This document shows positions 10,722-64,000 of a stretch of DNA of 64,000 bases, one piece after another. The stretch is from assembly GCA_032622095.1 (NCBI GenBank), contig CP136062.1:150220875-150284874 (forward strand), read 5' to 3'. Origin of the DNA: Siphonodentalium dalli (lineage: Eukaryota > Mollusca > Scaphopoda > Gadilida > Siphonodentaliidae). The translations under genes were made by a program, and so were the position numbers. Within the stretch, counting starts at the first letter, position 1. Each line of letters begins with the position of its first letter. The notes under the pieces are model-generated. The model was not told the DNA's origin, searched no databases, and worked only from the letters and a program-made list of their open reading frames with translations.

Positions 10722-11558
10722 TCATGCAGGGTCAAATCTTTCTTCGTTTACAATGTCTTGAAAAACTATTTCACTTTGGAGCAATGACAAGTTGAGAAAC
10801 TTGGATTGTTCACTTTTGATTACGAAACAACTTTTACTATGAAAATATTTGATGATCATTTCGACGGCTTTCTTTCCATTATTGTATACGCATTCTCTGA
10901 TCTTGCCGAACGACCCTTCGCCCAGCTTTCGACACAGAATGTATCCTTTTCCACTTTGGAGCAATGACAAGTTGAGAAACTTGGATTGTTCACTTTTGAT
11001 TACGAAACAACTTTTACTATAAAAACAATCTGATGAAAGCAAGTTTCCGTGCATTTCACGGAAACTTGGAATTTCCCCACCCACGCAATCGGTTAACGTC
11101 ACAGACATGTTATAAAGGTCACGACATTGCCAACCGGACATGGATGTATAAAAGCCTCCTTTATCAAAGATTTCTTCATTTACAATGTCCTGAAAAACTA
11201 TTCCACTTTGGAGCAATGACAAGTTGAGAAACTTGGATTGTTCACTTTTGATTACGAAACAACTTTTACTATAAAAAAAATCTGATGAATAAATGTTTCC
11301 GTGCATTTCACGGAAACATGGAATTTCCCCACCCCCGCAATCGGTGAACGTCACAGACATGTTATAAAGGTCACGACATTGCCAACCGGACTTGGATGTA
11401 TAAAAGCCTCCTTTATCAAAGATTTCTTCATTTACAATGTCCTGAAAAACTATTCCACTTTGGAGCAATGACAAGTTGAGAAACTTGGATTGTTCACTTT
11501 TGATTACGAAACAACTTTTACTATAAAAACAATCTGATGAAAGCAAGTTTCCGTGCAT
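10722..11558 (-). other. Chimeric open frame: 252-bp satellite with a kinase P-loop fragment
   Basis: A 278-codon minus-strand frame at the left edge. It reads about two and a half 84-residue satellite repeats, then KGYILCRKLGEGSFGKIREC and the following kinase residues through VEM, then satellite again (SKSCFVIKSEQSKFLNLSLL), ending NEERFDPA-stop. The kinase piece (10857-10950, 94 bp) keeps the glycine loop GEGSFG but lacks the ATP-binding Lys and all catalytic motifs, so it cannot be a kinase. The Gly before RKLG is changed to Cys. It is most likely a recombination by-product; translation is unproven. Confidence 0.6.
10857..10950 (-). pseudogene. 94-bp kinase exon fragment embedded in satellite
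   Basis: Matches the part of the kinase gene from 'catttcgacggctttctttc' to 'cagaatgtatcctttt' with a single substitution (gacacag for gacccag). Left and right junctions pass directly into satellite sequence. Confidence 0.9.
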
Positions 11559-11619
11559 TTCACGGAAACTTGGAATTTCCCCGCCCCCGCAAATTTCTTC
11601 ATTTGAAAAACTATTTCAC

Positions 11620-11707
11620 TTTGGAGCAATGACAAGTTGAGAAACTTGGATTGTTCACTTTTGATTACGAAATAACTTTTACTATACAAAAATCTGATTC
11701 CGTGCAG
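11620..11707. repeat. Truncated eighth 252-bp repeat 3' of each kinase (example from copy 1)
   Basis: A shortened repeat sits between the full repeats and the kinase 3' flank in every unit. It lacks ten bases (acaatgtcct) after cttcattt, has 'gaaataac' for 'gaaacaac', and stops at tctgattccgtgca. The lost ten bases shift the minus-strand frame, so the long satellite frames start only upstream of this point. Confidence 0.8.
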
Positions 11708-11731
11708 GACAAAACCATGAACTGCAAAAAA

Positions 11732-11752
11732 GGAAAAATTAACGGGGATTCC
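11732..11752 (-). promoter_or_regulatory. Candidate 3' splice site downstream of the kinase (example from copy 1)
   Basis: On the minus strand a pyrimidine-rich tract ttaatttttccttttttgcag ends in CAG with the intron end at 11732. It lies about 100 bases past the kinase stop and is present in every unit. No convincing donor was found between kinase and acceptor, so a 3' UTR intron is possible but not shown. Confidence 0.3.
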
Positions 11753-11754
11753 CC
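11744..11754. promoter_or_regulatory. Palindromic kappaB-like motif GGGGATTCCCC (example from copy 1)
   Basis: An 11-bp near-perfect palindrome fitting the Rel/NF-kappaB consensus GGGRNNYYCC, about 90 bases 3' of each kinase stop. The copy next to kinase 17 has the centre flipped (GGGGAATCCCC), which keeps the palindrome. Binding is untested. Confidence 0.3.
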
Positions 11755-11841
11755 TTCCATACAAACGACAGAACCAGTCCTTGTGAGTCTTGGAAATGTT
11801 TGTATATAAAATTTGGTTGAGAATTTTTTTAAAGAAAAAAA

Positions 11842-12651
11842 TTATTGTAACCACTTATGTTCGCGGATTTCAGAGAGGGTTATGCGTTTATTCACATCTG
11901 GTTCCAGAAGTCTCAATACTAAATCGACACAGTCATTCCCAACTTCGAGCGATTTTGGCAGCAGTGTTTCTCCGGGGGTTTGATTCTTCACAATTTTCTG
12001 GATATATGAGTTGCTGAATGGCATTCTTCCAAACACCAATGAGTACATAATTATGCCCAAGCTCCATATATCTGCCATAAATGGATCGTAGTTTTCGCCC
12101 CGTATTATTTCAGGAGAAATATATGAAGAGCTCCCACAGAAAGTATTGCTCAATTCCTTCATGTTGGACATGCGCCTCGCAAAGCCAAAGTCGGTTATCT
12201 TTGCTTTGCCATTTAAGTCGAGCAGGATATTTTCCAATTTGAGATCTCGGTGCGCTATCTTCTGCTCATGCAGATTAACAACACCGTGAATAATTTGTTT
12301 GAATAATTGCTTTGCTTCGCCTTCGTTCATGGGGCCATTGTCAGTAATTTTGTCCAAGAGGTCACCTCCCCGAACCAGTTCCATGAAGATGTAAATATTT
12401 TCCTTCAGTTCGATAACATTATGCAGCTTGACAACGCTATCTGAACTAATGCTCGAGAGAACGTTTATTTCTCTCGGTAAGAACTTTTCTAGGAACTCGG
12501 GTGAAGCATTCGTCTTATTGATTATTTTCACCGCCATTTCGACGGCTTTCTTTCCATTATTGTATACGCATTCTCTGATCTTGCCGAACGACCCTTCGCC
12601 CAGCTTTCGACCCAGAATGTATCCTTTTTTCGCAAGAAATGAATTTTCCAT
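11842..12651 (-). CDS. TSSK-like serine/threonine protein kinase, copy 1 (reference copy)
   Basis: A 269-residue protein consisting almost entirely of one protein kinase domain, predicted to transfer phosphate from ATP to Ser/Thr in the cytoplasm. Motifs in order: glycine loop GEGSFG (18-23), ATP-binding Lys42 in AVKII, helix-C Glu61 in FLPREI, catalytic loop HRDLKLEN (134-141), DFG (154-156), activation-loop Thr170 in TFCGSSSY, SPE (179-181), Asp194 in DIWSLG, Arg256 near the C-terminus. GY-LG-KLGEGSFGKIRE, FLPRE, DFGFAR and TFCGS with HKWL at the end fit the testis-specific serine kinase (TSSK) family of the CaMK group. There is no intron, signal peptide or membrane segment. The chosen ATG has a good context (AAAATGG) and lies 38 bases from a TATA box. 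Family call is firm at kinase level; TSSK is by motif pattern, and testis expression is inferred. Confidence 0.9.
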   Translation of the reverse strand: MENSFLAKKGYILGRKLGEGSFGKIRECVYNNGKKAVEMAVKIINKTNASPEFLEKFLPREINVLSSISSDSVVKLHNVIELKENIYIFMELVRGGDLLDKITDNGPMNEGEAKQLFKQIIHGVVNLHEQKIAHRDLKLENILLDLNGKAKITDFGFARRMSNMKELSNTFCGSSSYISPEIIRGENYDPFMADIWSLGIIMYSLVFGRMPFSNSYIQKIVKNQTPGETLLPKSLEVGNDCVDLVLRLLEPDVNKRITLSEIREHKWLQ

Positions 12652-12688
12652 TTTTATTATAGAAAGTTTGAACTTTGTCCATTTCCTT

Positions 12689-14730: not shown

Positions 14731-15540
14731 TTATTGTAACCACTTATGTTCGCGGATTTCAGAGAGGGTTATGCGTTTATTCACATCTGGTTCCAGAAGT
14801 CTCAATACTAAATCGACACAGTCATTCCCAACTTCGAGCGATTTTGGCAGCAGTGTTTCTCCGGGGGTTTGATTCTTCACAATTTTCTGGATATATGAGT
14901 TGCTGAATGGCATTCTTCCAAACACCAATGAGTACATAATTATGCCCAAGCTCCATATATCTGCCATAAATGGATCGTAGTTTTCGCCCCGTATTATTTC
15001 AGGAGAAATATATGAAGAGCTCCCACAGAAAGTATTGCTCAATTCCTTCATGTTGGACATGCGCCTCGCAAAGCCAAAGTCGGTTATCTTTGCTTTGCCA
15101 TTTAAGTCGAGCAGGATATTTTCCAATTTGAGATCTCGGTGCGCTATCTTCTGCTCATGCAGATTAACAACACCGTGAATAATTTGTTTGAATAATTGCT
15201 TTGCTTCGCCTTCGTTCATGGGGCCATTGTCAGTAATTTTGTCCAAGAGGTCACCTCCCCGAACCAGTTCCATGAAGATGTAAATATTTTCCTTCAGTTC
15301 GATAACATTATGCAGCTTGACAACGCTATCTGAACTAATGCTCGAGAGAACGTTTATTTCTCTCGGTAAGAACTTTTCTAGGAACTCGGGTGAAGCATTC
15401 GTCTTATTGATTATTTTCACCGCCATTTCGACGGCTTTCTTTCCATTATTGTATACGCATTCTCTGATCTTGCCGAACGACCCTTCGCCCAGCTTTCGAC
15501 CCAGAATGTATCCTTTTTTCGCAAGAAATGAATTTTCCAT
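14731..15540 (-). CDS. TSSK-like kinase, copy 2
   Basis: Protein identical to copy 1 (all catalytic motifs kept), and the flanks look the same by eye. Exactly 2,889 bp from its neighbours on both sides. Confidence 0.88.
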   Translation of the reverse strand: MENSFLAKKGYILGRKLGEGSFGKIRECVYNNGKKAVEMAVKIINKTNASPEFLEKFLPREINVLSSISSDSVVKLHNVIELKENIYIFMELVRGGDLLDKITDNGPMNEGEAKQLFKQIIHGVVNLHEQKIAHRDLKLENILLDLNGKAKITDFGFARRMSNMKELSNTFCGSSSYISPEIIRGENYDPFMADIWSLGIIMYSLVFGRMPFSNSYIQKIVKNQTPGETLLPKSLEVGNDCVDLVLRLLEPDVNKRITLSEIREHKWLQ

Positions 15541-17619: not shown

Positions 17620-18429
17620 TTATTGTAACCACTTATGTTCGCGGATTTCAGAGAGGGTTATGCGTTTATTCACATCTGGTTCCAGAAGTCTCAATACTAA
17701 ATCGACACAGTCATTCCCAACTTCGAGCGATTTTGGCAGCAGTGTTTCTCCGGGGGTTTGATTCTTCACAATTTTCTGGATATATGAGTTGCTGAATGGC
17801 ATTCTTCCAAACACCAATGAGTACATAATTATGCCCAAGCTCCATATATCTGCCATAAATGGATCGTAGTTTTCGCCCCGTATTATTTCAGGAGAAATAT
17901 ATGAAGAGCTCCCACAGAAAGTATTGCTCAATTCCTTCATGTTGGACATGCGCCTCGCAAAGCCAAAGTCGGTTATCTTTGCTTTGCCATTTAAGTCGAG
18001 CAGGATATTTTCCAATTTGAGATCTCGGTGCGCTATCTTCTGCTCATGCAGATTAACAACACCGTGAATAATTTGTTTGAATAATTGCTTTGCTTCGCCT
18101 TCGTTCATGGGGCCATTGTCAGTAATTTTGTCCAAGAGGTCACCTCCCCGAACCAGTTCCATGAAGATGTAAATATTTTCCTTCAGTTCGATAACATTAT
18201 GCAGCTTGACAACGCTATCTGAACTAATGCTCGAGAGAACGTTTATTTCTCTCGGTAAGAACTTTTCTAGGAACTCGGGTGAAGCATTCGTCTTATTGAT
18301 TATTTTCACCGCCATTTCGACGGCTTTCTTTCCATTATTGTATACGCATTCTCTGATCTTGCCGAACGACCCTTCGCCCAGCTTTCGACCCAGAATGTAT
18401 CCTTTTTTCGCAAGAAATGAATTTTCCAT
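17620..18429 (-). CDS. TSSK-like kinase, copy 3
   Basis: Protein identical to copy 1; no difference seen in promoter region or 3' flank. Confidence 0.88.
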   Translation of the reverse strand: MENSFLAKKGYILGRKLGEGSFGKIRECVYNNGKKAVEMAVKIINKTNASPEFLEKFLPREINVLSSISSDSVVKLHNVIELKENIYIFMELVRGGDLLDKITDNGPMNEGEAKQLFKQIIHGVVNLHEQKIAHRDLKLENILLDLNGKAKITDFGFARRMSNMKELSNTFCGSSSYISPEIIRGENYDPFMADIWSLGIIMYSLVFGRMPFSNSYIQKIVKNQTPGETLLPKSLEVGNDCVDLVLRLLEPDVNKRITLSEIREHKWLQ

Positions 18430-18517: not shown

Positions 18518-20374
18518 CATAAAGGTCACGACATTGTCAACCGGACTTGGATGTATAAAAGCCTCCTTTATCAGAGATTTCTTCATTTACAATGTCCTGA
18601 AAAACTATTTCACTTTGGAGCAATGACAAGTTGAGAAACTTGGATTGTTCACTTTTGATTACGAAACAACTTTTACTATTAAAAAAATTTGATGAATAAA
18701 TGTTTCCGTGCATTTCACGGAAACATGGAATTTCCCCACCCCCGCAATCGGTGAACGTCACATACATGTTATAAAGGTCACGACATTGCCAACCGGACTT
18801 GGATGTATAAAAGCCTCCTTTATCAAAGATTTCTTCATTTACAATGTCCTGAAAAACTATTCCACTTTGGAGCAATGACAAGTTGAGAAACTTGGATTGT
18901 TCACTTTTGATTACGAAACAACTTTTACTATAAAAAAAATCTGATGAATAAATGTTTCCGTGCATTTCACGGACACTTGGAATTTACCCACCCCCGCAAT
19001 CGATGAACGTCACAGACAAGTTATAACGGTCACGACATTGCCAACCGGACTTGGATGTATAAAAGCCTCCTTTATCAAAGATTTCTTCATTTACAATGTC
19101 CTGAAAAACTATTCCACTTTGGAGCAATGACAAGTTGAGAAACTTGGATTGTTCACTTTTGATTACGAAACAACTTTTACTATAAAAACAATCTGATGAA
19201 AGCAAGTTTCCGTGCATTTCACGGAAACTTGGAATTTCCCCACCCCCGCAATCGGTTAACGTCACAGACATGTTATAAAGGTCACGACATTGCCAACCGG
19301 ACATGGATGTATAAAAGCCTCCTTTATCAAAGATTTCTTCATTTACAATGTCCTGAAAAACTATTCCACTTTGGAGCAATGACAAGTTGAGAAACTTGGA
19401 TTGTTCACTTTTGATTACGAAACAACTTTTACTATAAAAAAAATCTGATGAATAAATGTTTCCGTGCATTTCACGGAAACATGGAATTTCCCCACCCCCG
19501 CAATCGGTGAACGTCACAGACATGTTATAAAGGTCACGACATTGCCAACCGGACTTGGATGTATAAAAGCCTCCTTTATCAAAGATTTCTTCATTTACAA
19601 TGTCCTGAAAAACTATTCCACTTTGGAGCAATGACAAGTTGAGAAACTTGGATTGTTCACTTTTGATTACGAAACAACTTTTACTATAAAAACAATCTGA
19701 TGAAAGCAAGTTTCCGTGCATTTCACGGAAACTTGGAATTTCCCCACCCACGCAATCGGTTAACGTCACAGACATGTTATAAAGGTCACGACATTGCCAA
19801 CCGGACATGGATGTATAAAAGCCTCCTTTATCAAAGATTTCTTCATTTACAATGTCCTGAAAAACTATTCCACTTTGGAGCAATGACAAGTTGAGAAACT
19901 TGGATTGTTCACTTTTGATTACGAAACAACTTTTACTATAAAAAAAATCTGATGAATAAATGTTTCCGTGCATTTCACGGAAACATGGAATTTCCCCACC
20001 CCCGCAATCGGTGAACGTCACAGACATGTTATAAAGGTCACGACATTGCCAACCGGACTTGGATGTATAAAAGCCTCCTTTATCAAAGATTTCTTCATTT
20101 ACAATGTCCTGAAAAACTATTCCACTTTGGAGCAATGACAAGTTGAGAAACTTGGATTGTTCACTTTTGATTACGAAACAACTTTTACTATAAAAACAAT
20201 CTGATGAAAGCAAGTTTCCGTGCATTTCACGGAAACTTGGAATTTCCCCGCCCCCGCAAATTTCTTCATTTGAAAAACTATTTCACTTTGGAGCAATGAC
20301 AAGTTGAGAAACTTGGATTGTTCACTTTTGATTACGAAATAACTTTTACTATACAAAAATCTGATTCCGTGCAG
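18518..20374. repeat. 252-bp satellite block 3 (seven full repeats)
   Basis: Matches block 1 in length and in order of A, B and stop-bearing repeats. Confidence 0.9.
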
Positions 20375-20508: not shown

Positions 20509-21318
20509 TTATTGTAACCACTTATGTTCGCGGATTTCAGAGAGGGTTATGCGTTTATTCACATCTGGTTCCAGAAGTCTCAATACTAAATCGACACAGT
20601 CATTCCCAACTTCGAGCGATTTTGGCAGCAGTGTTTCTCCGGGGGTTTGATTCTTCACAATTTTCTGGATATATGAGTTGCTGAATGGCATTCTTCCAAA
20701 CACCAATGAGTACATAATTATGCCCAAGCTCCATATATCTGCCATAAATGGATCGTAGTTTTCGCCCCGTATTATTTCAGGAGAAATATATGAAGAGCTC
20801 CCACAGAAAGTATTGCTCAATTCCTTCATGTTGGACATGCGCCTCGCAAAGCCAAAGTCGGTTATCTTTGCTTTGCCATTTAAGTCGAGCAGGATATTTT
20901 CCAATTTGAGATCTCGGTGCGCTATCTTCTGCTCATGCAGATTAACAACACCGTGAATAATTTGTTTGAATAATTGCTTTGCTTCGCCTTCGTTCATGGG
21001 GCCATTGTCAGTAATTTTGTCCAAGAGGTCACCTCCCCGAACCAGTTCCATGAAGATGTAAATATTTTCCTTCAGTTCGATAACATTATGCAGCTTGACA
21101 ACGCTATCTGAACTAATGCTCGAGAGAACGTTTATTTCTCTCGGTAAGAACTTTTCTAGGAACTCGGGTGAAGCATTCGTCTTATTGATTATTTTCACCG
21201 CCATTTCGACGGCTTTCTTTCCATTATTGTATACGCATTCTCTGATCTTGCCGAACGACCCTTCGCCCAGCTTTCGACCCAGAATGTATCCTTTTTTCGC
21301 AAGAAATGAATTTTCCAT
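20509..21318 (-). CDS. TSSK-like kinase, copy 4
   Basis: Protein identical to copy 1. Last intact copy before the indel-rich stretch. Confidence 0.88.
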   Translation of the reverse strand: MENSFLAKKGYILGRKLGEGSFGKIRECVYNNGKKAVEMAVKIINKTNASPEFLEKFLPREINVLSSISSDSVVKLHNVIELKENIYIFMELVRGGDLLDKITDNGPMNEGEAKQLFKQIIHGVVNLHEQKIAHRDLKLENILLDLNGKAKITDFGFARRMSNMKELSNTFCGSSSYISPEIIRGENYDPFMADIWSLGIIMYSLVFGRMPFSNSYIQKIVKNQTPGETLLPKSLEVGNDCVDLVLRLLEPDVNKRITLSEIREHKWLQ

Positions 21319-23397: not shown

Positions 23398-24200
23398 TTA
23401 TTGTAACCACTTATGTTCGCGGATTTCAGAGAGGGTTATGCGTTTATTCACATCTGGTTCCAGAAGTCTCAATACTAAATCGACACAGTCATTCCCAACT
23501 TCGAGCGATTTTGGCAGCAGTGTTTCTCCGGGGGTTTGATTCTTCACAATTTTCTGGATATATGAGTTGCTGAATGGCATTCTTCCAAACACCAATGATG
23601 CCCAAGCTCCATATATCTGCCATAAATGGATCGTAGTTTTCGCCCCGTATTATTTCAGGAGAAATATATGAAGAGCTCCCACAGAAAGTATTGCTCAATT
23701 CCTTCATGTTGGACATGCGCCTCGCAAAGCCAAAGTCGGTTTATCTTTGCTTTGCCATTTAAGTCGAGCAGGATATTTCCAATTTGAGATCTCGGTGCGC
23801 TATCTTCTGCTCATGCAGATTAACAACACCGTGGAATAATTTGTTTGAATAATTGCTTTGCTTCGCCTTCGTTCAATGGGGCCATTGTCAGTAATTTTGT
23901 CCAAGAGGTCACCTCCCCGAACCAGTTCCATGAAGATGTAAATATTTTCCTTCAGTCGATAACATTATGCAGCTGACAACGCTATCTGAACTAATGCTCG
24001 AGAGAACGTTTTATTTCTCTCGGTAAGAACTTTTCTAGGAACTCGGGGTGAAGCATTCGTCTTATTGATTATTTTCACCGCCCATTTCGACGGCTTTCTT
24101 TCCATTATTGTATACGCATTCTCTGATCTTGCCGAACGACCCTTCGCCCAGGCTTTCGACCCAGAATGTATCCTTTTTTCGCAAGAAATGAATTTTCCAT
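23398..24200 (-). pseudogene. TSSK-like kinase, copy 5, frame broken by many indels
   Basis: The C-terminal 65 codons are normal. Then an 11-bp deletion at about 23598 and a series of one-base gains and losses (for example ggtttatc, atatttcc, gtggaata, ttcaatggg, cagtcgat, cgcccattt, ccaggctt) break the frame repeatedly back to the ATG at 24200. Almost no substitutions accompany them. A true decayed gene would accumulate both, so this looks like a poorly corrected long-read segment rather than a pseudogene; the underlying gene may be intact. Confidence 0.75.
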
Positions 24201-24295
24201 TTTTATTATAGAAAGTTTGAACTTTGTCCATTTCCTTTATTTATAGATTTTTTTTCCAAACGACCCGAGCATCGGAGCGTGACCCTTGTCCATAA

Positions 24296-26154
24296 AGGTC
24301 ACGACATTGTCAACCGGACTTGGATGTATAAAGAGCCTCCTTTATCAGAGATTTCTTCATTTACAATGTCCTGAAAAACTATTTCACTTTGGAGCAATGA
24401 CAAGTTGAGAAACTTGGATTGTTCACTTTTGATTACGAAACAACTTTTACTATTAAAAAAAATTTGATGAATAAAATGTTTCCGTGCATTTCACGGAAAC
24501 ATGGAATTTTCCCCACCCCCGCAATCGGTGAACGTCACATACATGTTATAAAGGTCACGACATTGCCAACCGGACTTGGATGTATAAAAGCCTCCTTTAT
24601 CAAAGATTTCTTCATTTACAATGTCCTGAAAAACTATTCCACTTTGGAGCAATGACAAGTTGAGAAACTTGGATTGTTCACTTTTGATTACGAAACAACT
24701 TTTACTATAAAAAAAATCTGATGAATAAATGTTTCCGTGCATTTCACGGACACTTGGAATTTACCCACCCCCGCAATCGATGAACGTCCACAGACAAGTT
24801 ATAACGGTCACGACATTGCCAACCGGACTTGGATGTATAAAAGCCTCCTTTATCAAAGATTTCTTCATTTACAATGTCCTGAAAAACTATTCCACTTTGG
24901 AGCAATGACAAGTTGAGAAACTTGGATTGTTCACTTTTGATTACGAAACAACTTTTACTATAAAAACAATCTGATGAAAGCAAGTTTCCGTGCATTTCAC
25001 GGAAACTTGGAATTTCCCCACCCCCGCAATCGGTTAACGTCACAGACATGTTATAAAGGTCACGACATTGCCAACCGGACATGGATGTATAAAAGCCTCC
25101 TTTATCAAAGATTTCTTCATTTACAATGTCCTGAAAAACTATTCCACTTTGGAGCAATGACAAGTTGAGAAACTTGGATTGTTCACTTTTGATTACGAAA
25201 CAACTTTTACTATAAAAAAAATCTGATGAATTAAATGTTTCCGTGCATTTCACGGAAACATGGAATTTCCCCACCCCCGCAATCGGTGAACGTCACAGAC
25301 ATGTTATAAAAGGTCACGACATTGCCACCGGACTTGGATGTATAAAAGCCTCCTTTATCAAAGATTTCTTCATTTACAATGTCCTGAAAAACTATTCCAC
25401 TTTGGAGCAATGACAAGTTGAGAAACTTGGATTGTTCACTTTTGATTACGAAACAACTTTTACTATAAAAACAATCTGATGAAAGCAAGTTTCCGTGCAT
25501 TTCACGGAAACTTGGAATTTTCCCCACCCACGCAATCGGTTAACGTCACAGACATGTTATAAAGGTCACGACATTGCCAACCGGACATGGATGTATAAAA
25601 GCCTCCTTTATCAAAGATTTCTTCATTTACAATGTCCTGAAAAACTATTCCACTTTGGAGCAATGACAAGTTGAGAAACTTGGATTGTTCACTTTTGATT
25701 ACGAAACAACTTTTACTATAAAAAAAATCTGATGAATAAATGTTTCCGTGCATTTCACGGAAACATGGAATTTCCCCACCCCCGCAATCGGTGAACGTCA
25801 CAGACATGTTATAAAGGTCACGACATTGCCAACCGGACTTGGATGTATAAAAGCCTCCTTTATCAAAGATTTCTTCATTTACAATGTCCTGAAAAACTAT
25901 TCCACTTTGGAGCAATGACAAGTTGAGAAACTTGGATTGTTCACTTTTGATTACGAAACAACTTTTACTATAAAAACAATCTGATGAAAGCAAGTTTCCG
26001 TGCATTTCACGGAAACTTGGAATTTCCCCGCCCCCGCAAATTTCTTCATTTGAAAAACTATTTCACTTTGGAGCAATGACAAGTTGAGAAACTTGGATTG
26101 TTCACTTTTGATTACGAAATAACTTTTACTATACAAAAATCTGATTCCGTGCAG
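24296..26154. repeat. 252-bp satellite block 5 (seven repeats, indel-rich on the left)
   Basis: Has the normal repeat order. One-base indels continue through about 25521 (gaattaaatg, ttataaaagg, attgccaccgg, gaattttccc) and then cease. They cut the usual 413-codon frame into pieces. Net length change across unit 5 is only +2 bp. Confidence 0.88.
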
Positions 26155-26288: not shown

Positions 26289-27098
26289 TTATTGTAACCA
26301 CTTATGTTCGCGGATTTCAGAGAGGGTTATGCGTTTATTCACATCTGGTTCCAGAAGTCTCAATACTAAATCGACACAGTCATTCCCAACTTCGAGCGAT
26401 TTTGGCAGCAGTGTTTCTCCGGGGGTTTGATTCTTCACAATTTTCTGGATATATGAGTTGCTGAATGGCATTCTTCCAAACACCAATGAGTACATAATTA
26501 TGCCCAAGCTCCATATATCTGCCATAAATGGATCGTAGTTTTCGCCCCGTATTATTTCAGGAGAAATATATGAAGAGCTCCCACAGAAAGTATTGCTCAA
26601 TTCCTTCATGTTGGACATGCGCCTCGCAAAGCCAAAGTCGGTTATCTTTGCTTTGCCATTTAAGTCGAGCAGGATATTTTCCAATTTGAGATCTCGGTGC
26701 GCTATCTTCTGCTCATGCAGATTAACAACACCGTGAATAATTTGTTTGAATAATTGCTTTGCTTCGCCTTCGTTCATGGGGCCATTGTCAGTAATTTTGT
26801 CCAAGAGGTCACCTCCCCGAACCAGTTCCATGAAGATGTAAATATTTTCCTTCAGTTCGATAACATTATGCAGCTTGACAACGCTATCTGAACTAATGCT
26901 CGAGAGAACGTTTATTTCTCTCGGTAAGAACTTTTCTAGGAACTCGGGTGAAGCATTCGTCTTATTGATTATTTTCACCGCCATTTCGACGGCTTTCTTT
27001 CCATTATTGTATACGCATTCTCTGATCTTGCCGAACGACCCTTCGCCCAGCTTTCGACCCAGAATGTATCCTTTTTTCGCAAGAAATGAATTTTCCAT
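26289..27098 (-). CDS. TSSK-like kinase, copy 6
   Basis: Protein identical to copy 1. Lies 2,891 bp from copy 5 and only 2,385 bp from copy 7, because its satellite block is short. Confidence 0.88.
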   Translation of the reverse strand: MENSFLAKKGYILGRKLGEGSFGKIRECVYNNGKKAVEMAVKIINKTNASPEFLEKFLPREINVLSSISSDSVVKLHNVIELKENIYIFMELVRGGDLLDKITDNGPMNEGEAKQLFKQIIHGVVNLHEQKIAHRDLKLENILLDLNGKAKITDFGFARRMSNMKELSNTFCGSSSYISPEIIRGENYDPFMADIWSLGIIMYSLVFGRMPFSNSYIQKIVKNQTPGETLLPKSLEVGNDCVDLVLRLLEPDVNKRITLSEIREHKWLQ

Positions 27099-28673: not shown

Positions 28674-29483
28674 TTATTGTAACCACTTATGTTCGCGGAT
28701 TTCAGAGAGGGTTATGCGTTTATTCACATCTGGTTCCAGAAGTCTCAATACTAAATCGACACAGTCATTCCCAACTTCGAGCGATTTTGGCAGCAGTGTT
28801 TCTCCGGGGGTTTGATTCTTCACAATTTTCTGGATATATGAGTTGCTGAATGGCATTCTTCCAAACACCAATGAGTACATAATTATGCCCAAGCTCCATA
28901 TATCTGCCATAAATGGATCGTAGTTTTCGCCCCGTATTATTTCAGGAGAAATATATGAAGAGCTCCCACAGAAAGTATTGCTCAATTCCTTCATGTTGGA
29001 CATGCGCCTCGCAAAGCCAAAGTCGGTTATCTTTGCTTTGCCATTTAAGTCGAGCAGGATATTTTCCAATTTGAGATCTCGGTGCGCTATCTTCTGCTCA
29101 TGCAGATTAACAACACCGTGAATAATTTGTTTGAATAATTGCTTTGCTTCGCCTTCGTTCATGGGGCCATTGTCAGTAATTTTGTCCAAGAGGTCACCTC
29201 CCCGAACCAGTTCCATGAAGATGTAAATATTTTCCTTCAGTTCGATAACATTATGCAGCTTGACAACGCTATCTGAACTAATGCTCGAGAGAACGTTTAT
29301 TTCTCTCGGTAAGAACTTTTCTAGGAACTCGGGTGAAGCATTCGTCTTATTGATTATTTTCACCGCCATTTCGACGGCTTTCTTTCCATTATTGTATACG
29401 CATTCTCTGATCTTGCCGAACGACCCTTCGCCCAGCTTTCGACCCAGAATGTATCCTTTTTTCGCAAGAAATGAATTTTCCAT
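28674..29483 (-). CDS. TSSK-like kinase, copy 7
   Basis: Protein identical to copy 1, with the usual flanks on both sides. Confidence 0.88.
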   Translation of the reverse strand: MENSFLAKKGYILGRKLGEGSFGKIRECVYNNGKKAVEMAVKIINKTNASPEFLEKFLPREINVLSSISSDSVVKLHNVIELKENIYIFMELVRGGDLLDKITDNGPMNEGEAKQLFKQIIHGVVNLHEQKIAHRDLKLENILLDLNGKAKITDFGFARRMSNMKELSNTFCGSSSYISPEIIRGENYDPFMADIWSLGIIMYSLVFGRMPFSNSYIQKIVKNQTPGETLLPKSLEVGNDCVDLVLRLLEPDVNKRITLSEIREHKWLQ

Positions 29484-31562: not shown

Positions 31563-32372
31563 TTATTGTAACCACTTATGTTCGCGGATTTCAGAGAGGG
31601 TTATGCGTTTATTCACATCTGGTTCCAGAAGTCTCAATACTAAATCGACACAGTCATTCCCAACTTCGAGCGATTTTGGCAGCAGTGTTTCTCCGGGGGT
31701 TTGATTCTTCACAATTTTCTGGATATATGAGTTGCTGAATGGCATTCTTCCAAACACCAATGAGTACATAATTATGCCCAAGCTCCATATATCTGCCATA
31801 AATGGATCGTAGTTTTCGCCCCGTATTATTTCAGGAGAAATATATGAAGAGCTCCCACAGAAAGTATTGCTCAATTCCTTCATGTTGGACATGCGCCTCG
31901 CAAAGCCAAAGTCGGTTATCTTTGCTTTGCCATTTAAGTCGAGCAGGATATTTTCCAATTTGAGATCTCGGTGCGCTATCTTCTGCTCATGCAGATTAAC
32001 AACACCGTGAATAATTTGTTTGAATAATTGCTTTGCTTCGCCTTCGTTCATGGGGCCATTGTCAGTAATTTTGTCCAAGAGGTCACCTCCCCGAACCAGT
32101 TCCATGAAGATGTAAATATTTTCCTTCAGTTCGATAACATTATGCAGCTTGACAACGCTATCTGAACTAATGCTCGAGAGAACGTTTATTTCTCTCGGTA
32201 AGAACTTTTCTAGGAACTCGGGTGAAGCATTCGTCTTATTGATTATTTTCACCGCCATTTCGACGGCTTTCTTTCCATTATTGTATACGCATTCTCTGAT
32301 CTTGCCGAACGACCCTTCGCCCAGCTTTCGACCCAGAATGTATCCTTTTTTCGCAAGAAATGAATTTTCCAT
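31563..32372 (-). CDS. TSSK-like kinase, copy 8
   Basis: Protein identical to copy 1. Standard 2,889-bp spacing on both sides. Confidence 0.88.
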   Translation of the reverse strand: MENSFLAKKGYILGRKLGEGSFGKIRECVYNNGKKAVEMAVKIINKTNASPEFLEKFLPREINVLSSISSDSVVKLHNVIELKENIYIFMELVRGGDLLDKITDNGPMNEGEAKQLFKQIIHGVVNLHEQKIAHRDLKLENILLDLNGKAKITDFGFARRMSNMKELSNTFCGSSSYISPEIIRGENYDPFMADIWSLGIIMYSLVFGRMPFSNSYIQKIVKNQTPGETLLPKSLEVGNDCVDLVLRLLEPDVNKRITLSEIREHKWLQ

Positions 32373-32460
32373 TTTTATTATAGAAAGTTTGAACTTTGTC
32401 CATTTCCTTTATTTATAGATTTTTTTCCAAACGACCCGAGCATCGGAGCGTGACCCTTGT

Positions 32461-35261: not shown

Positions 35262-35349
35262 TTTTATTATAGAAAGTTTGAACTTTGTCCATTTCCTTTA
35301 TTTATAGATTTTTTTCCAAACGACCCGAGCATCGGAGCGTGACCCTTGT

Positions 35350-44999: not shown

Positions 45000-45809
45000 T
45001 TATTGTAACCACTTATGTTCGCGGATTTCAGAGAGGGTTATGCGTTTATTCACATCTGGTTCCAGAAGTCTCAATACTAAATCGACACAGTCATTCCCAA
45101 CTTCGAGCGATTTTGGCAGCAGTGTTTCTCCGGGGGTTTGATTCTTCACAATTTTCTGGATATATGAGTTGCTGAATGGCATTCTTCCAAACACCAATGA
45201 GTACATAATTATGCCCAAGCTCCATATATCTGCCATAAATGGATCGTAGTTTTCGCCCCGTATTATTTCAGGAGAAATATATGAAGAGCTCCCACAGAAA
45301 GTATTGCTCAATTCCTTCATGTTGGACATGCGCCTCGCAAAGCCAAAGTCGGTTATCTTTGCTTTGCCATTTAAGTCGAGCAGGATATTTTCCAATTTGA
45401 GATCTCGGTGCGCTATCTTCTGCTCATGCAGATTAACAACACCGTGAATAATTTGTTTGAATAATTGCTTTGCTTCGCCTTCGTTCATGGGGCCATTGTC
45501 AGTAATTTTGTCCAAGAGGTCACCTCCCCGAACCAGTTCCATGAAGATGTAAATATTTTCCTTCAGTTCGATAACATTATGCAGCTTGACAACGCTATCT
45601 GAACTAATGCTCGAGAGAACGTTTATTTCTCTCGGTAAGAACTTTTCTAGGAACTCGGGTGAAGCATTCGTCTTATTGATTATTTTCACCGCCATTTCGA
45701 CGGCTTTCTTTCCATTATTGTATACGCATTCTCTGATCTTGCCGAACGACCCTTCGCCCAGCTTTCGACCCAGAATGTATCCTTTTTTCGCAAGAAATGA
45801 ATTTTCCAT
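45000..45809 (-). CDS. TSSK-like kinase, copy 13
   Basis: Protein identical to copy 1; it lacks the Trp99 change of copy 11, its counterpart one 4,770-bp block away. Confidence 0.88.
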   Translation of the reverse strand: MENSFLAKKGYILGRKLGEGSFGKIRECVYNNGKKAVEMAVKIINKTNASPEFLEKFLPREINVLSSISSDSVVKLHNVIELKENIYIFMELVRGGDLLDKITDNGPMNEGEAKQLFKQIIHGVVNLHEQKIAHRDLKLENILLDLNGKAKITDFGFARRMSNMKELSNTFCGSSSYISPEIIRGENYDPFMADIWSLGIIMYSLVFGRMPFSNSYIQKIVKNQTPGETLLPKSLEVGNDCVDLVLRLLEPDVNKRITLSEIREHKWLQ

Positions 45810-46880: not shown

Positions 46881-47690
46881 TTATTGTAACCACTTATGTT
46901 CGCGGATTTCAGAGAGGGTTATGCGTTTATTCACATCTGGTTCCAGAAGTCTCAATACTAAATCGACACAGTCATTCCCAACTTCGAGCGATTTTGGCAG
47001 CAGTGTTTCTCCGGGGGTTTGATTCTTCACAATTTTCTGGATATATGAGTTGCTGAATGGCATTCTTCCAAACACCAATGAGTACATAATTATGCCCAAG
47101 CTCCATATATCTGCCATAAATGGATCGTAGTTTTCGCCCCGTATTATTTCAGGAGAAATATATGAAGAGCTCCCACAGAAAGTATTGCTCAATTCCTTCA
47201 TGTTGGACATGCGCCTCGCAAAGCCAAAGTCGGTTATCTTTGCTTTGCCATTTAAGTCGAGCAGGATATTTTCCAATTTGAGATCTCGGTGCGCTATCTT
47301 CTGCTCATGCAGATTAACAACACCGTGAATAATTTGTTTGAATAATTGCTTTGCTTCGCCTTCGTTCATGGGGCCATTGTCAGTAATTTTGTCCAAGAGG
47401 TCACCTCCCCGAACCAGTTCCATGAAGATGTAAATATTTTCCTTCAGTTCGATAACATTATGCAGCTTGACAACGCTATCTGAACTAATGCTCGAGAGAA
47501 CGTTTATTTCTCTCGGTAAGAACTTTTCTAGGAACTCGGGTGAAGCATTCGTCTTATTGATTATTTTCACCGCCATTTCGACGGCTTTCTTTCCATTATT
47601 GTATACGCATTCTCTGATCTTGCCGAACGACCCTTCGCCCAGCTTTCGACCCAGAATGTATCCTTTTTTCGCAAGAAATGAATTTTCCAT
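46881..47690 (-). CDS. TSSK-like kinase, copy 14
   Basis: Protein identical to copy 1. Counterpart of copy 12 in the 4,770-bp block duplication. Confidence 0.88.
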   Translation of the reverse strand: MENSFLAKKGYILGRKLGEGSFGKIRECVYNNGKKAVEMAVKIINKTNASPEFLEKFLPREINVLSSISSDSVVKLHNVIELKENIYIFMELVRGGDLLDKITDNGPMNEGEAKQLFKQIIHGVVNLHEQKIAHRDLKLENILLDLNGKAKITDFGFARRMSNMKELSNTFCGSSSYISPEIIRGENYDPFMADIWSLGIIMYSLVFGRMPFSNSYIQKIVKNQTPGETLLPKSLEVGNDCVDLVLRLLEPDVNKRITLSEIREHKWLQ

Positions 47691-49517: not shown

Positions 49518-50328
49518 TTATTGTAACCACTTATGTTCGCGGATTTCAGAGAGGGTTATGCGTTTATTCACATCTGGTTCCAGAAGTCTCAATACTAAAT
49601 CGACACAGTCATTCCCAACTTCGAGCGATTTTGGCAGCAGTGTTTCTCCGGGGGTTTGATTCTTCACAATTTTCTGGATATATGAGTTGCTGAATGGCAT
49701 TCTTCCAAACACCAATGAGTACATAATTATGCCCAAGCTCCATATATCTGCCATAAATGGATCGTAGTTTTCGCCCCGTATTATTTCAGGAGAAATATAT
49801 GAAGAGCTCCCACACAAAGTATTGCTCAATTCCTTCATGTTGGACATGCGCCTCGCAAAGCCAAAGTCGGTTATCTTTGCTTTGCCATTTAAGTCGAGCA
49901 GGATATTTTCCAATTTGAGATCTCGGTGCGCTATCTTCTGCTCATGCAGATTAACAACACCGTGAATAATTTGTTTGAATAATTGCTTTGCTTCGCCTTC
50001 GTTCATGGGTGCCATTGTCAGTAATTTTGTTCAAGAGGTCACCTCCCCGAACCAGTTCCATGAAGATGTAAATATTTTCCTTCAGTTCGATAACATTATG
50101 CAGCTTGACAACGCTATCTGAACTAATGCTCGAGAGAACGTTTATTTCTCTCGGTAAGAACTTTTCTAGGAACTCGGGTGAAGCATTCGTCTTATTGATT
50201 ATTTTCACCGCCATTTCGACGGCTTTCTTTCCATTATTGTATACGCATTCTCTGATCTTGCCGAACGACCCTTCGCCCAGCTTTCGACCCAGAATGTATC
50301 CTTTTTTCGCAAGAAATGAATTTTCCAT
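49518..50328 (-). pseudogene. TSSK-like kinase, copy 15, one-base frameshift
   Basis: An extra base in catgggTgccatt (near 50010) shifts the frame after Asn105-Gly106, just before the catalytic loop. The first part would give 125 residues with the ATP-binding lobe only; the second (49518-50015) keeps HRDLKLEN, DFG and the rest. It also has Asp100 to Asn and Phe171 to Leu next to the activation-loop Thr. Unlike copy 5, it shows substitutions as well as an indel, so real decay is plausible, though a sequencing error at the insert is not excluded. Confidence 0.75.
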
Positions 50329-52406: not shown

Positions 52407-53216
52407 TTATTGTAACCACTTATGTTCGCGGATTTCAGAGAGGGTTATGCGTTTATTCACATCTGGTTCCAGAAGTCTCAATACTAAATCGACACAGTCA
52501 TTCCCAACTTCGAGCGATTTTGGCAGCAGTGTTTCTCCGGGGGTTTGATTCTTCACAATTTTCTGGATATATGAGTTGCTGAATGGCATTCTTCCAAACA
52601 CCAATGAGTACATAATTATGCCCAAGCTCCATATATCTGCCATAAATGGATCGTAGTTTTCGCCCCGTATTATTTCAGGAGAAATATATGAAGAGCTCCC
52701 ACAGAAAGTATTGCTCAATTCCTTCATGTTGGACATGCGCCTCGCAAAGCCAAAGTCTGTTATCTTTGCTTTGCCATTTAAGTCGAGCAGGATATTTTCC
52801 AATTTGAGATCTCGGTGCGCTATCTTCTGCTCATGCAGATTAACAACACCGTGAATAATTTGTTTGAATAATTGCTTTGCTTCGCCTTCGTTCATGGGGC
52901 CATTGTCAGTAATTTTGTCCAAGAGGTCACCTCCCCGAACCAGTTCCATGAAGATGTAAATATTTTCCTTCAGTTCGATAACATTATGCAGCTTGACAAC
53001 GCTATCTGAACTAATGCTCGAGAGAACGTTTATTTCTCTCGGTAAGAACTTTTCTAGGAACTCGGGTGAAGCATTCGTCTTATTGATTATTTTCACCGCC
53101 ATTTCGACGGCTTTCTTTCCATTATTGTATACGCATTCTCTGATCTTGCCGAACGACCCTTCGCCCAGCTTTCGACCCAGAATGTATCCTTTTTTCGCAA
53201 GAAATGAATTTTCCAT
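52407..53216 (-). CDS. TSSK-like kinase, copy 16
   Basis: Protein identical to copy 1, with one silent change (aagtcTgtt near 52757, Thr codon). Shares the upstream cccgTgcat variant with broken copy 15. Confidence 0.88.
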   Translation of the reverse strand: MENSFLAKKGYILGRKLGEGSFGKIRECVYNNGKKAVEMAVKIINKTNASPEFLEKFLPREINVLSSISSDSVVKLHNVIELKENIYIFMELVRGGDLLDKITDNGPMNEGEAKQLFKQIIHGVVNLHEQKIAHRDLKLENILLDLNGKAKITDFGFARRMSNMKELSNTFCGSSSYISPEIIRGENYDPFMADIWSLGIIMYSLVFGRMPFSNSYIQKIVKNQTPGETLLPKSLEVGNDCVDLVLRLLEPDVNKRITLSEIREHKWLQ

Positions 53217-55255: not shown

Positions 55256-55586
55256 TTATCACATAATTTGGCCATAAAAGCAGTTTCATAATTATCGGTA
55301 ATAGACACGTTTAATATCAGCGCGTGCGATGACGTCACGGCGTTCTTCAAATAACTTGCGATCGCTGTAGTTCATGATTGTTGTTTTCGATGAATATTTC
55401 GCGTTGCTTCGGGTTTATTTGATCATGTGATAAAAGGTATCTCACACTCGTCCTATTTTATACGTAATTTATCAACCTCGTCCTCTAAATTCTATTTGAG
55501 CCTCGGTAAACCTCGGCTCAAATCGAATTTAGTGAACTCGGTTGATAAATTCCGTATAAAATAGAAACTCATGTGAGATCCTCTAT
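55256..55586. mobile_element. 331-bp foldback insertion in the 3' flank of kinase 17
   Basis: The exact extra length of this unit (3,220 against 2,889 bp) is accounted for by 55256-55586, placed between 'ggaaatgttt' and 'gtatataaaat'. Its right half is an imperfect foldback: 55439-55500 pairs with 55517-55579, with shared blocks CTATTTTATACG-AATTTATCAACC and CTAAATTC-ATTTGAG. A CRE-like TGACGTCA lies at 55330-55337. No protein is encoded and no clear target duplication flanks it, so the mobility class is uncertain. Confidence 0.75.
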
Positions 55587-55626
55587 GTATATAAAATTTG
55601 GTTGAGAATTTTTTTAAAGAAAAAAA

Positions 55627-56436
55627 TTATTGTAACCACTTATGTTCGCGGATTTCAGAGAGGGTTATGCGTTTATTCACATCTGGTTCCAGAAGTCTCA
55701 ATACTAAATCGACACAGTCATTCCCAACTTCGAGCGATTTTGGCAGCAGTGTTTCTCCGGGGGTTTGATTCTTCACAATTTTCTGGATATATGAGTTGCT
55801 GAATGGCATTCTTCCAAACACCAATGAGTACATAATTATGCCCAAGCTCCATATATCTGCCATAAATGGATCGTAGTTTTCGCCCCGTATTATTTCAGGA
55901 GAAATATATGAAGAGCTCCCACAGAAAGTATTGCTCAATTCCTTCATGTTGGACATGCGCCTCGCAAAGCCAAAGTCGGTTATCTTTGCTTTGCCATTTA
56001 AGTCGAGCAGGATATTTTCCAATTTGAGATCTCGGTGCGCTATCTTCTGCTCATGCAGATTAACAACACCGTGAATAATTTGTTTGAATAATTGCTTTGC
56101 TTCGCCTTCGTTCATGGGGCCATTGTCAGTAATTTTGTCCAAGAGGTCACCTCCCCGAACCAGTTCCATGAAGATGTAAATATTTTCCTTCAGTTCGATA
56201 ACATTATGCAGCTTGACAACGCTATCTGAACTAATGCTCGAGAGAACGTTTATTTCTCTCGGTAAGAACTTTTCTAGGAACTCGGGTGAAGCATTCGTCT
56301 TATTGATTATTTTCACCGCCATTTCGACGGCTTTCTTTCCATTATTGTATACGCATTCTCTGATCTTGCCGAACGACCCTTCGCCCAGCTTTCGACCCAG
56401 AATGTATCCTTTTTTCGCAAGAAATGAATTTTCCAT
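55627..56436 (-). CDS. TSSK-like kinase, copy 17
   Basis: Protein identical to copy 1. Its 3' flank is split by the foldback insertion starting 41 bases from the stop codon, which separates the gene from the candidate splice site and kappaB-like motif. Confidence 0.88.
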   Translation of the reverse strand: MENSFLAKKGYILGRKLGEGSFGKIRECVYNNGKKAVEMAVKIINKTNASPEFLEKFLPREINVLSSISSDSVVKLHNVIELKENIYIFMELVRGGDLLDKITDNGPMNEGEAKQLFKQIIHGVVNLHEQKIAHRDLKLENILLDLNGKAKITDFGFARRMSNMKELSNTFCGSSSYISPEIIRGENYDPFMADIWSLGIIMYSLVFGRMPFSNSYIQKIVKNQTPGETLLPKSLEVGNDCVDLVLRLLEPDVNKRITLSEIREHKWLQ

Positions 56437-58515: not shown

Positions 58516-59325
58516 TTATTGTAACCACTTATGTTCGCGGATTTCAGAGAGGGTTATGCGTTTATTCACATCTGGTTCCAGAAGTCTCAATACTAAATCG
58601 ACACAGTCATTCCCAACTTCGAGCGATTTTGGCAGCAGTGTTTCTCCGGGGGTTTGATTCTTCACAATTTTCTGGATATATGAGTTGCTGAATGGCATTC
58701 TTCCAAACACCAATGAGTACATAATTATGCCCAAGCTCCATATATCTGCCATAAATGGATCGTAGTTTTCGCCCCGTATTATTTCAGGAGAAATATATGA
58801 AGAGCTCCCACAGAAAGTATTGCTCAATTCCTTCATGTTGGACATGCGCCTCGCAAAGCCAAAGTCGGTTATCTTTGCTTTGCCATTTAAGTCGAGCAGG
58901 ATATTTTCCAATTTGAGATCTCGGTGCGCTATCTTCTGCTCATGCAGATTAACAACACCGTGAATAATTTGTTTGAATAATTGCTTTGCTTCGCCTTCGT
59001 TCATGGGGCCATTGTCAGTAATTTTGTCCAAGAGGTCACCTCCCCGAACCAGTTCCATGAAGATGTAAATATTTTCCTTCAGTTCGATAACATTATGCAG
59101 CTTGACAACGCTATCTGAACTAATGCTCGAGAGAACGTTTATTTCTCTCGGTAAGAACTTTTCTAGGAACTCGGGTGAAGCATTCGTCTTATTGATTATT
59201 TTCACCGCCATTTCGACGGCTTTCTTTCCATTATTGTATACGCATTCTCTGATCTTGCCGAACGACCCTTCGCCCAGCTTTCGACCCAGAATGTATCCTT
59301 TTTTCGCAAGAAATGAATTTTCCAT
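58516..59325 (-). CDS. TSSK-like kinase, copy 18
   Basis: Protein identical to copy 1. One change just upstream of the ATG (tagaTag near 59338). Confidence 0.88.
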   Translation of the reverse strand: MENSFLAKKGYILGRKLGEGSFGKIRECVYNNGKKAVEMAVKIINKTNASPEFLEKFLPREINVLSSISSDSVVKLHNVIELKENIYIFMELVRGGDLLDKITDNGPMNEGEAKQLFKQIIHGVVNLHEQKIAHRDLKLENILLDLNGKAKITDFGFARRMSNMKELSNTFCGSSSYISPEIIRGENYDPFMADIWSLGIIMYSLVFGRMPFSNSYIQKIVKNQTPGETLLPKSLEVGNDCVDLVLRLLEPDVNKRITLSEIREHKWLQ

Positions 59326-59413
59326 TTTTATTATAGATAGTTTGAACTTTGTCCATTTCCTTTATTTATAGATTTTTTTCCAAACGACCCGAGCATCGGA
59401 GCGTGACCCTTGT

Positions 59414-61270: not shown

Positions 61271-61404
61271 GACAAAACCATGAACTGCAAAAAAGGAAAA
61301 ATTAACGGGGATTCCCCTTCCATACAAACGACAGAACCAGTCCTTGTGAGTCTTGGAAATGTTTGTATATAAAATTTGGTTGAGAATTTTTTTAAAGAAA
61401 AAAA

Positions 61405-62214
61405 TTATTGTAACCACTTATGTTCGCGGATTTCAGAGAGGGTTATGCGTTTATTCACATCTGGTTCCAGAAGTCTCAATACTAAATCGACACAGTCATT
61501 CCCAACTTCGAGCGATTTTGGCAGCAGTGTTTCTCCGGGGGTTTGATTCTTCACAATTTTCTGGATATATGAGTTGCTGAATGGCATTCTTCCAAACACC
61601 AATGAGTACATAATTATGCCCAAGCTCCATATATCTGCCATAAATGGATCGTAGTTTTCGCCCCGTATTATTTCAGGAGAAATATATGAAGAGCTCCCAC
61701 AGAAAGTATTGCTCAATTCCTTCATGTTGGACATGCGCCTCGCAAAGCCAAAGTCGGTTATCTTTGCTTTGCCATTTAAGTCGAGCAGGATATTTTCCAA
61801 TTTGAGATCTCGGTGCGCTATCTTCTGCTCATGCAGATTAACAACACCGTGAATAATTTGTTTGAATAATTGCTTTGCTTCGCCTTCGTTCATGGGGCCA
61901 TTGTCAGTAATTTTGTCCAAGAGGTCACCTCCCCGAACCAGTTCCATGAAGATGTAAATATTTTCCTTCAGTTCGATAACATTATGCAGCTTGACAACGC
62001 TATCTGAACTAATGCTCGAGAGAACGTTTATTTCTCTCGGTAAGAACTTTTCTAGGAACTCGGGTGAAGCATTCGTCTTATTGATTATTTTCACCGCCAT
62101 TTCGACGGCTTTCTTTCCATTATTGTATACGCATTCTCTGATCTTGCCGAACGACCCTTCGCCCAGCTTTCGACCCAGAATGTATCCTTTTTTCGCAAGA
62201 AATGAATTTTCCAT
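61405..62214 (-). CDS. TSSK-like kinase, copy 19
   Basis: Protein identical to copy 1. Last kinase in the window; the array continues beyond it. Confidence 0.88.
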   Translation of the reverse strand: MENSFLAKKGYILGRKLGEGSFGKIRECVYNNGKKAVEMAVKIINKTNASPEFLEKFLPREINVLSSISSDSVVKLHNVIELKENIYIFMELVRGGDLLDKITDNGPMNEGEAKQLFKQIIHGVVNLHEQKIAHRDLKLENILLDLNGKAKITDFGFARRMSNMKELSNTFCGSSSYISPEIIRGENYDPFMADIWSLGIIMYSLVFGRMPFSNSYIQKIVKNQTPGETLLPKSLEVGNDCVDLVLRLLEPDVNKRITLSEIREHKWLQ

Positions 62215-62302
62215 TTTTATTATAGAAAGTTTGAACTTTGTCCATTTCCTTTATTTATAGATTTTTTTCCAAACGACCCGAGCATCGGAGCGTGACCCTT
62301 GT

Positions 62303-64000
62303 CATAAAGGTCACGACATTGTCAACCGGACTTGGATGTATAAAAGCCTCCTTTATCAGAGATTTCTTCATTTACAATGTCCTGAAAAACTATTTCACTT
62401 TGGAGCAATGACAAGTTGAGAAACTTGGATTGTTCACTTTTGATTACGAAACAACTTTTACTATTAAAAAAATTTGATGAATAAATGTTTCCGTGCATTT
62501 CACGGAAACATGGAATTTCCCCACCCCCGCAATCGGTGAACGTCACATACATGTTATAAAGGTCACGACATTGCCAACCGGACTTGGATGTATAAAAGCC
62601 TCCTTTATCAAAGATTTCTTCATTTACAATGTCCTGAAAAACTATTCCACTTTGGAGCAATGACAAGTTGAGAAACTTGGATTGTTCACTTTTGATTACG
62701 AAACAACTTTTACTATAAAAAAAATCTGATGAATAAATGTTTCCGTGCATTTCACGGACACTTGGAATTTACCCACCCCCGCAATCGATGAACGTCACAG
62801 ACAAGTTATAACGGTCACGACATTGCCAACCGGACTTGGATGTATAAAAGCCTCCTTTATCAAAGATTTCTTCATTTACAATGTCCTGAAAAACTATTCC
62901 ACTTTGGAGCAATGACAAGTTGAGAAACTTGGATTGTTCACTTTTGATTACGAAACAACTTTTACTATAAAAACAATCTGATGAAAGCAAGTTTCCGTGC
63001 ATTTCACGGAAACTTGGAATTTCCCCACCCCCGCAATCGGTTAACGTCACAGACATGTTATAAAGGTCACGACATTGCCAACCGGACATGGATGTATAAA
63101 AGCCTCCTTTATCAAAGATTTCTTCATTTACAATGTCCTGTAAAACTATTCCACTTTGGAGCAATGACAAGTTGAGAAACTTGGATTGTTCACTTTTGAT
63201 TACGAAACAACTTTTACTATAAAAAAAATCTGATGAATAAATGTTTCCGTGCATTTCACGGAAACATGGAATTTCCCCACCCCCGCAATCGGTGAACGTC
63301 ACAGACATGTTATAAAGGTCACGACATTGCCAACCGGACTTGGATGTATAAAAGCCTCCTTTATCAAAGATTTCTTCATTTACAATGTCCTGAAAAACTA
63401 TTCCACTTTGGAGCAATGACAAGTTGAGAAACTTGGATTGTTCACTTTTGATTACGAAACAACTTTTACTATAAAAACAATCTGATGAAAGCAAGTTTCC
63501 GTGCATTTCACGGAAACTTGGAATTTCCCCACCCACGCAATCGGTTAACGTCACAGACATGTTATAAAGGTCACGACATTGCCAACCGGACATGGATGTA
63601 TAAAAGCCTCCTTTATCAAAGATTTCTTCATTTACAATGTCCTGAAAAACTATTCCACTTTGGAGCAATGACAAGTTGAGAAACTTGGATTGTTCACTTT
63701 TGATTACGAAACAACTTTTACTATAAAAAAAATCTGATGAATAAATGTTTCCGTGCATTTCACGGAAACATGGAATTTCCCCACCCCCGCAATCGGTGAA
63801 CGTCACAGACATGTTATAAAGGTCACGACATTGCCAACCGGACTTGGATGTATAAAAGCCTCCTTTATCAAAGATTTCTTCATTTACAATGTCCTGAAAA
63901 ACTATTCCACTTTGGAGCAATGACAAGTTGAGAAACTTGGATTGTTCACTTTTGATTACGAAACAACTTTTACTATAAAAACAATCTGATGAAAGCAAGT
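62303..64000. repeat. 252-bp satellite block 19 (cut by window end)
   Basis: Six full repeats and part of a seventh are visible. Private change ctgTaaaac near 63141. The array has no right boundary in this window. Confidence 0.9.

Follow-up and report, generated by a model that had tools for sequence, protein, structure and literature searches.

A kinase gene is repeated head to tail at 19 positions, all on the minus strand, in a stretch of 64,000 bases (hereafter the window; it contains no N) from the scaphopod Siphonodentalium dalli (assembly GCA_032622095.1, contig CP136062.1, positions 150,220,875 to 150,284,874). The best explanation overall, and in our judgement a probable one, is a young, protein-coding macrosatellite whose unit carries a TSSK-type kinase. 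The copies were counted by comparing one kinase open reading frame (ORF; 17620 to 18429) with the window by blastn and by consulting the ORF list of the window. Both confirm an initial annotation of this DNA, which had reported 19 minus-strand kinase positions head to tail, 17 of them intact. The full-length positions extend from 11842 to 62214, and since the array is unclosed at the right window edge, 19 copies are a minimum for this assembly. The array and its kinase copies are:

10732 to 64000, minus strand, the whole tandem array of kinase units, not closed where the window ends on the right
11842 to 12651, minus strand, kinase copy, intact (ORF list and blastn)
14731 to 15540, minus strand, kinase copy, intact (ORF list and blastn)
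17620 to 18429, minus strand, kinase copy, intact, the query copy (ORF list, blastn and Pfam)
20509 to 21318, minus strand, kinase copy, intact (ORF list and blastn)
23398 to 24200, minus strand, kinase copy, frame broken by indels only, mostly inside a probable error patch
26289 to 27098, minus strand, kinase copy, intact (ORF list and blastn)
28674 to 29483, minus strand, kinase copy, intact; repeat block on the low-coordinate side short by 504 bp
31563 to 32372, minus strand, kinase copy, intact (ORF list and blastn)
34452 to 35261, minus strand, kinase copy, intact, consensus unit (ORF list and blastn)
37341 to 38150, minus strand, kinase copy, intact, E55Q
40230 to 41039, minus strand, kinase copy, intact, L99W
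42111 to 42920, minus strand, kinase copy, intact; repeat block on the low-coordinate side short by 1,008 bp
45000 to 45809, minus strand, kinase copy, intact (ORF list and blastn)
46881 to 47690, minus strand, kinase copy, intact; repeat block on the low-coordinate side short by 1,008 bp
49518 to 50328, minus strand, kinase copy, frameshifted by an insertion of one base; repeat block on the low-coordinate side short by 252 bp
52407 to 53216, minus strand, kinase copy, intact, one silent change
55627 to 56436, minus strand, kinase copy, intact (ORF list and blastn)
58516 to 59325, minus strand, kinase copy, intact (ORF list and blastn)
61405 to 62214, minus strand, kinase copy, intact (ORF list and blastn)

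The 810-bp kinase gene is identical at 14 of the 19 positions (query included), and the remaining five carry differences. The intact frames (17 of 19 positions) are 269 amino acids long: 15 of them encode one identical protein, and the other two have a single replacement each (E55Q in the copy at 37341 to 38150, L99W in the copy at 40230 to 41039). The statement of the initial annotation that the intact proteins differ by at most one residue therefore holds against the common protein, but the E55Q and L99W copies differ from each other by two. At the two broken positions, the copy at 23398 to 24200 shows 11 gap openings and no mismatches, and the copy at 49518 to 50328 has one inserted base and two substitutions. 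Chance need not be considered for a head-to-tail kinase array; 19 copies in one assembly are, on the other hand, no certain guide to the real copy number.

The start codons are spaced by 2,889 bp in 10 of the 18 intervals, and the other eight spacings are 3,220, 2,898, 2,888, 2,882, 2,638 and 2,385 bp, and 1,881 bp twice. Each unit consists, in order, of a kinase cassette of 1,038 bp without any repeat match, a degenerate repeat copy of 140 bp, six full repeats of 252 bp and a truncated repeat of 199 bp. One such repeat block serves as an example:

32458 to 34168, minus strand, repeat block with six full 252-bp repeats and the truncated 199-bp repeat

The mean divergence among the six full repeats inside one unit is 2.86%, whereas 252-bp repeats at the same position diverge by 0.076% across the ten full-length units. 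It follows that the 252-bp repeats predate the amplification or homogenisation, which acted on the unit as a whole. The ten full-length units have a mean pairwise difference of 0.075%; six of them are identical across 2,889 bp, as are 15 of the 45 pairs. These figures support the earlier proposal of very recent amplification or active homogenisation. The array itself thus stands as first described, in an account that made no use of the nested 252-bp architecture, of the error patch treated below, or of the point that youth alone keeps frames intact.

Several features of the units are signs of exchange. Relative to the consensus unit, four units are short by exactly 252, 504, 1,008 and 1,008 bp; the substitution 1277 C>T is common to six units that are not all adjacent; and a unit of 2,889 bp comes next after both of the units of 1,881 bp. 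As patterns in the sequence, the shortened units, the scattered 1277 C>T and the succession of 1,881 and 2,889 bp fit unequal exchange among the small repeats together with block duplication of units, and we infer that the 252-bp repeats drive the exchange. One further length variant is confined to a single unit:

55256 to 55586, strand not assigned, 331-bp insertion observed in one unit only, just downstream of its kinase copy

The first half of this insertion (55256 to 55586) is partly self-complementary by eye, and the insertion resembles a small mobile element. Another side observation concerns the junctions of the 252-bp repeats, which are spanned by a palindrome of 11 to 12 bp with a 5-base loop (e.g. 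19203 to 19231). At the 124 matched junctions, the palindrome occurs in two versions with both arms complementary (55 and 52 cases) and is broken in 17; it may aid breakage or exchange.

We consider it highly probable that the array of this architecture is real in the genome. It is improbable, by our estimate, that mis-resolution of the repeat turned a gene of one or few copies, lying next to a 252-bp minisatellite, into a long array, and that polishing then equalised the copies. What speaks for such an assembly artefact is, first, one patch of the array:

23599 to 25521 (1.9 kb), strand not assigned, patch of 21 single-base indels and one 11-bp deletion, with no substitutions

An indel-only patch of this kind is typical of raw long-read consensus, and going by its sequence the patch is probably uncorrected consensus, i.e. 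an assembly error. Most of the broken copy at 23398 to 24200 lies inside the patch, so this copy is probably no real pseudogene; the broken copy at 49518 to 50328 may be real. Outside the patch, only one more one-base indel is listed for the complete units: the unit starting at 53216 lacks a base in its repeats. The artefact would also accord with the uneven spread of substitutions (counted with the incomplete edge unit at 12651 left out): the nine units in a row at the left (with start codons from 15540 to 38150) have one substitution in 25.5 kb, compared with 19 distinct substitutions in 23.7 kb for the nine units at the right (41039 to 62214), a difference with P = 1.2e-5 for a split chosen post hoc. 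The left half is either younger or resolved from fewer independent reads. The right half, however, has units with substitutions of their own, as well as the 331-bp insertion and three of the four shortened units, features that looping one read would not yield, and assemblers collapse identical repeats more often than they inflate them.

The kinase gene is intron-free, and its product matches the Pfam family Pkinase over residues 12 to 268 of 269 (E-value 4e-68). In the alignment to TSSK6, the positions of the glycine loop, the VAIK-type lysine, HRD, DFG and SPE are all present, so that the protein has a CAMK-like kinase domain with its catalytic residues. Among solved structures the best matches are TSSK6 chains (194 bits; 100 of 261 residues identical), followed by SIK3 (183 bits; 94 of 252) and MARK4 (180 bits; 95 of 252), and TSSK6 is the only TSSK among the 60 matches listed. 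There are 77 positions at which SIK3 and MARK4 agree with each other and differ from TSSK6: the query is like TSSK6 at 18 of these, like SIK3/MARK4 at 20 and like neither at 39. The query shares with TSSK6 only, among the chains aligned, the letters FLPRE, which we take to be typical of TSSKs; for the 55-residue piece of the N-lobe around them the scores are 30.0 bits for MARK4 and 29.6 bits for TSSK6. The description of the gene as TSSK-like thus holds as far as the best solved match and the FLPRE stretch go, with a lead over MARK and SIK that is only narrow. On these sequence comparisons TSSK is a likely but unproven assignment and the best single label. The kinase should not be named TSSK6, since Tssk6 is reported absent from invertebrates (PMC8042308).

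Other searches with the kinase added little. It matched 18 NCBIfam families, all under the curated cut-offs of a library made for prokaryotes. There were three candidate stretches in viral contigs and 34 in prokaryote genome contigs, none of them a relative, and both collections are silent on animal orthologues. A single-sequence structure prediction of the kinase reached a mean predicted local distance difference test score (pLDDT) of 35 and was not used. One 28-base word of the repeat had no match in the viral contigs, a collection that does not hold animal genomes. No tandem array of TSSK genes is reported in the titles and abstract openings covered, which came from open-licence literature.

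A TATA-like site lies upstream of the kinase:

35301 to 35306, minus strand, TATAAA of the consensus unit, about 45 bp upstream of where the kinase starts; putative promoter element

None of the variants listed for the other complete units falls in this TATAAA, which suggests one putative promoter per unit. The chances that the kinase is expressed seem to us evenly balanced. On the explanation we favour, the 252-bp repeats are the older element and the unit the one that multiplied later; the small repeats would serve as homology for misaligned exchange, which would change the copy number and keep the units alike. Since every cassette has a TATA-like site and a full kinase frame of its own, each could be expressed, and the size of the array would set how much of a TSSK-type kinase is made, most likely at a late stage of sperm development. 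Such a role in sperm dosage is a tentative suggestion, somewhat short of probable. It draws on what is reported for TSSK genes elsewhere: all five Tssk genes of a scallop are expressed most strongly in mature testis, with signal in spermatids and spermatozoa (PMC8042308), and a TSSK-like gene of a moth is testis-specific and required for male fertility, with its loss sterilising males (PMC12551868). Male mice, too, are infertile after loss of Tssk6, or of Tssk1 together with Tssk2 (PMC7401350, PMC8042308). If the explanation is true, a macrosatellite that multiplies a TSSK gene would be a natural test of selection or conflict over the dose of a sperm kinase. The nested structure is also a readable record of how a coding array grows: small repeats, then whole units, then length changes in steps of 252 bp.

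Five points weigh against this explanation. First, the kinase has six substitutions in 15,390 bp (0.39 per kb) and the other array DNA has 14 distinct substitutions in 34,652 bp (0.40 per kb; Fisher P = 1), and with equal coding and non-coding densities no selection is visible on the copies. Second, four of the six coding changes are replacements and two are silent, where 74% replacement, 21% silent and 5% stop are expected at random. Third, no AATAAA or ATTAAA occurs between the kinase stop and the next cassette in the consensus unit. Fourth, the case for TSSK membership is narrow, as judged from the alignments, with TSSK6 barely ahead of SIK3 and MARK4. Fifth, consensus polishing in a repeat may have made the units look more alike than they really are.

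The first two points favour a passive satellite with a passenger gene, in which the 252-bp repeats would make the array grow and shrink neutrally, with the kinase copies as mostly silent, undecayed cargo. The number of stop codons expected in all 19 copies together is only about 0.3 (six changes with a stop share of 4.8%), so intact frames need no selection; together with the equal substitution densities, this means that they reflect youth and are no proof of use. The broken pieces of mobile elements in the flank (see below) also suit a passenger. However, the TATA-like site of the consensus unit and the complete catalytic domain imply that the source gene probably still worked at the onset of amplification, and when an array is this young, a lack of visible constraint carries no information and does not count as a negative. 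We regard a mere passenger as unlikely, although less so than an artefact of assembly. Even a purely passive array would remain a clear example of a coding macrosatellite.

The 252-bp repeat is itself open in one frame in five of its seven copies in the consensus unit (18984 to 20225 and equivalents), and the ORF list of the window holds 13 ORFs of 413 amino acids built from these repeats. We rejected a second gene in the repeats. The 21 variable sites among the seven repeats comprise 19 non-synonymous changes, two stops and no silent change; at least one of the six frames is open also in 175 of 3,000 dinucleotide shuffles; and the Pfam matches to the 413-residue ORF include no stretch that passes alone. 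The lack of silent changes would have a chance of about 0.01 if sites were independent, but the changes are clustered and not independent. The 252-bp part alone looks non-coding. The unit as a whole contains a complete kinase frame, so that the array is not a satellite devoid of protein-coding content.

The left edge of the array is at about 10732, below which there is no repeat match. Two features mark this edge:

10732 to 10855, minus strand, array edge, diverged remnant of the 252-bp repeat, 92.8% identical to the reference repeat
10857 to 10950, minus strand, piece of the kinase gene of 94 bp (98.9% identical), fused into DNA of the repeats (blastn)

The left flank contains RVT_1 matches above the curated Pfam cut-off at 3667 to 4260 and 7902 to 8201, and weaker ones, below the cut-off, at 6367 to 7548 and 8311 to 8562. 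These reverse-transcriptase pieces (3667 to 8562; two of four above the cut-off) are on both strands and adjoin the array. Also found in the flank are a 26-bp minisatellite (1985 to 2448) and short dispersed repeats that are 79–95% alike (1150 to 1266 with 9251 to 9366; 300 to 367 with 2827 to 2894 and 4800 to 4867). No Rfam family reached threshold and no tRNA was found in the window; a permissive RNA search with 3 kb of one unit returned one weak match (E-value 0.96) under the gathering score.

Compared with the TSSK family (TSSK1 to TSSK6, with Tssk7 proposed in protostomes), the kinase shares the CAMK-like domain, FLPRE and a similar length (269 amino acids, compared with 273 for TSSK6), and some mollusc Tssk genes are reported to be intron-free as well (PMC8042308). 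The family differs in having few genes per genome in the species considered, with five in scallop (PMC8042308) and about as many in oyster as the four MARK genes found there (PMC4883820). The intron-free scallop genes Tssk3 and Tssk7 also encode longer proteins, of 355 and 497 amino acids (PMC8042308).

Multicopy kinase-related genes are known from conflicts over transmission. Stellate of Drosophila, the comparison offered by the initial annotation, is a relative of the casein-kinase-2 (CK2) regulatory subunit and not a kinase. It is like the present gene in being multicopy, and is itself reported to be testis-expressed, but it has a multicopy Y-linked suppressor, Su(Ste) (PMC12941216), for which no counterpart is known here. 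The comparison is thus weak. By analogy, mouse Smok would be the nearer sperm-kinase precedent: it is a multi-gene kinase family of late sperm development, and its member SmokTcr is the responder of the t-haplotype (PMC9863905), although drive has been shown for Smok and would be conjecture for the array described here. The idea of an ampliconic kinase that is selfish or linked to drive, its copies having multiplied through a conflict over transmission by sperm as with mouse Smok/Tcr or Drosophila Stellate, has precedents on its side, namely the position of SmokTcr in a multi-gene sperm motility kinase family (PMC9863905) and the listing of ampliconic germline-expressed genes among signatures of drive (PMC12941216). 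The repeat and ORF lists of the window, however, contain no partner or suppressor array, and we hold this explanation to be very unlikely. Similarly far-fetched at present is a macrosatellite counterpart of the mouse Smok responder, in which conflict or dosage selection would act on the number of copies at an ampliconic sperm kinase locus (e.g. sex-linked, or driving via sperm competition), with the 252-bp repeats as a built-in machine that changes this number rapidly.

The closest structural parallels to the young coding macrosatellite that we favour are human. RS447 has units of 4.7 kb that each encode the deubiquitinating enzyme USP17, with 20 to 103 units in one study; CT47 has a unit of 4.8 kb and is normally germline-restricted; and D4Z4 has a unit of 3.3 kb with DUX4 (PMC3599962). 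As reported there, these systems resemble the present array in that units of kilobase size form arrays of high copy number and every unit encodes one gene product (PMC3599962). Here, too, a kilobase unit is repeated head to tail in one orientation (19 minus-strand positions, 10 of 18 intervals at 2,889 bp), with an open gene in the unit at 17 of 19 positions. The differences are the CAMK-like kinase and the 252-bp tandem repeats internal to the unit, in an array known from one assembly. The array follows the known macrosatellite plan, but it is built around another gene and has repeats nested inside the unit as an additional level.

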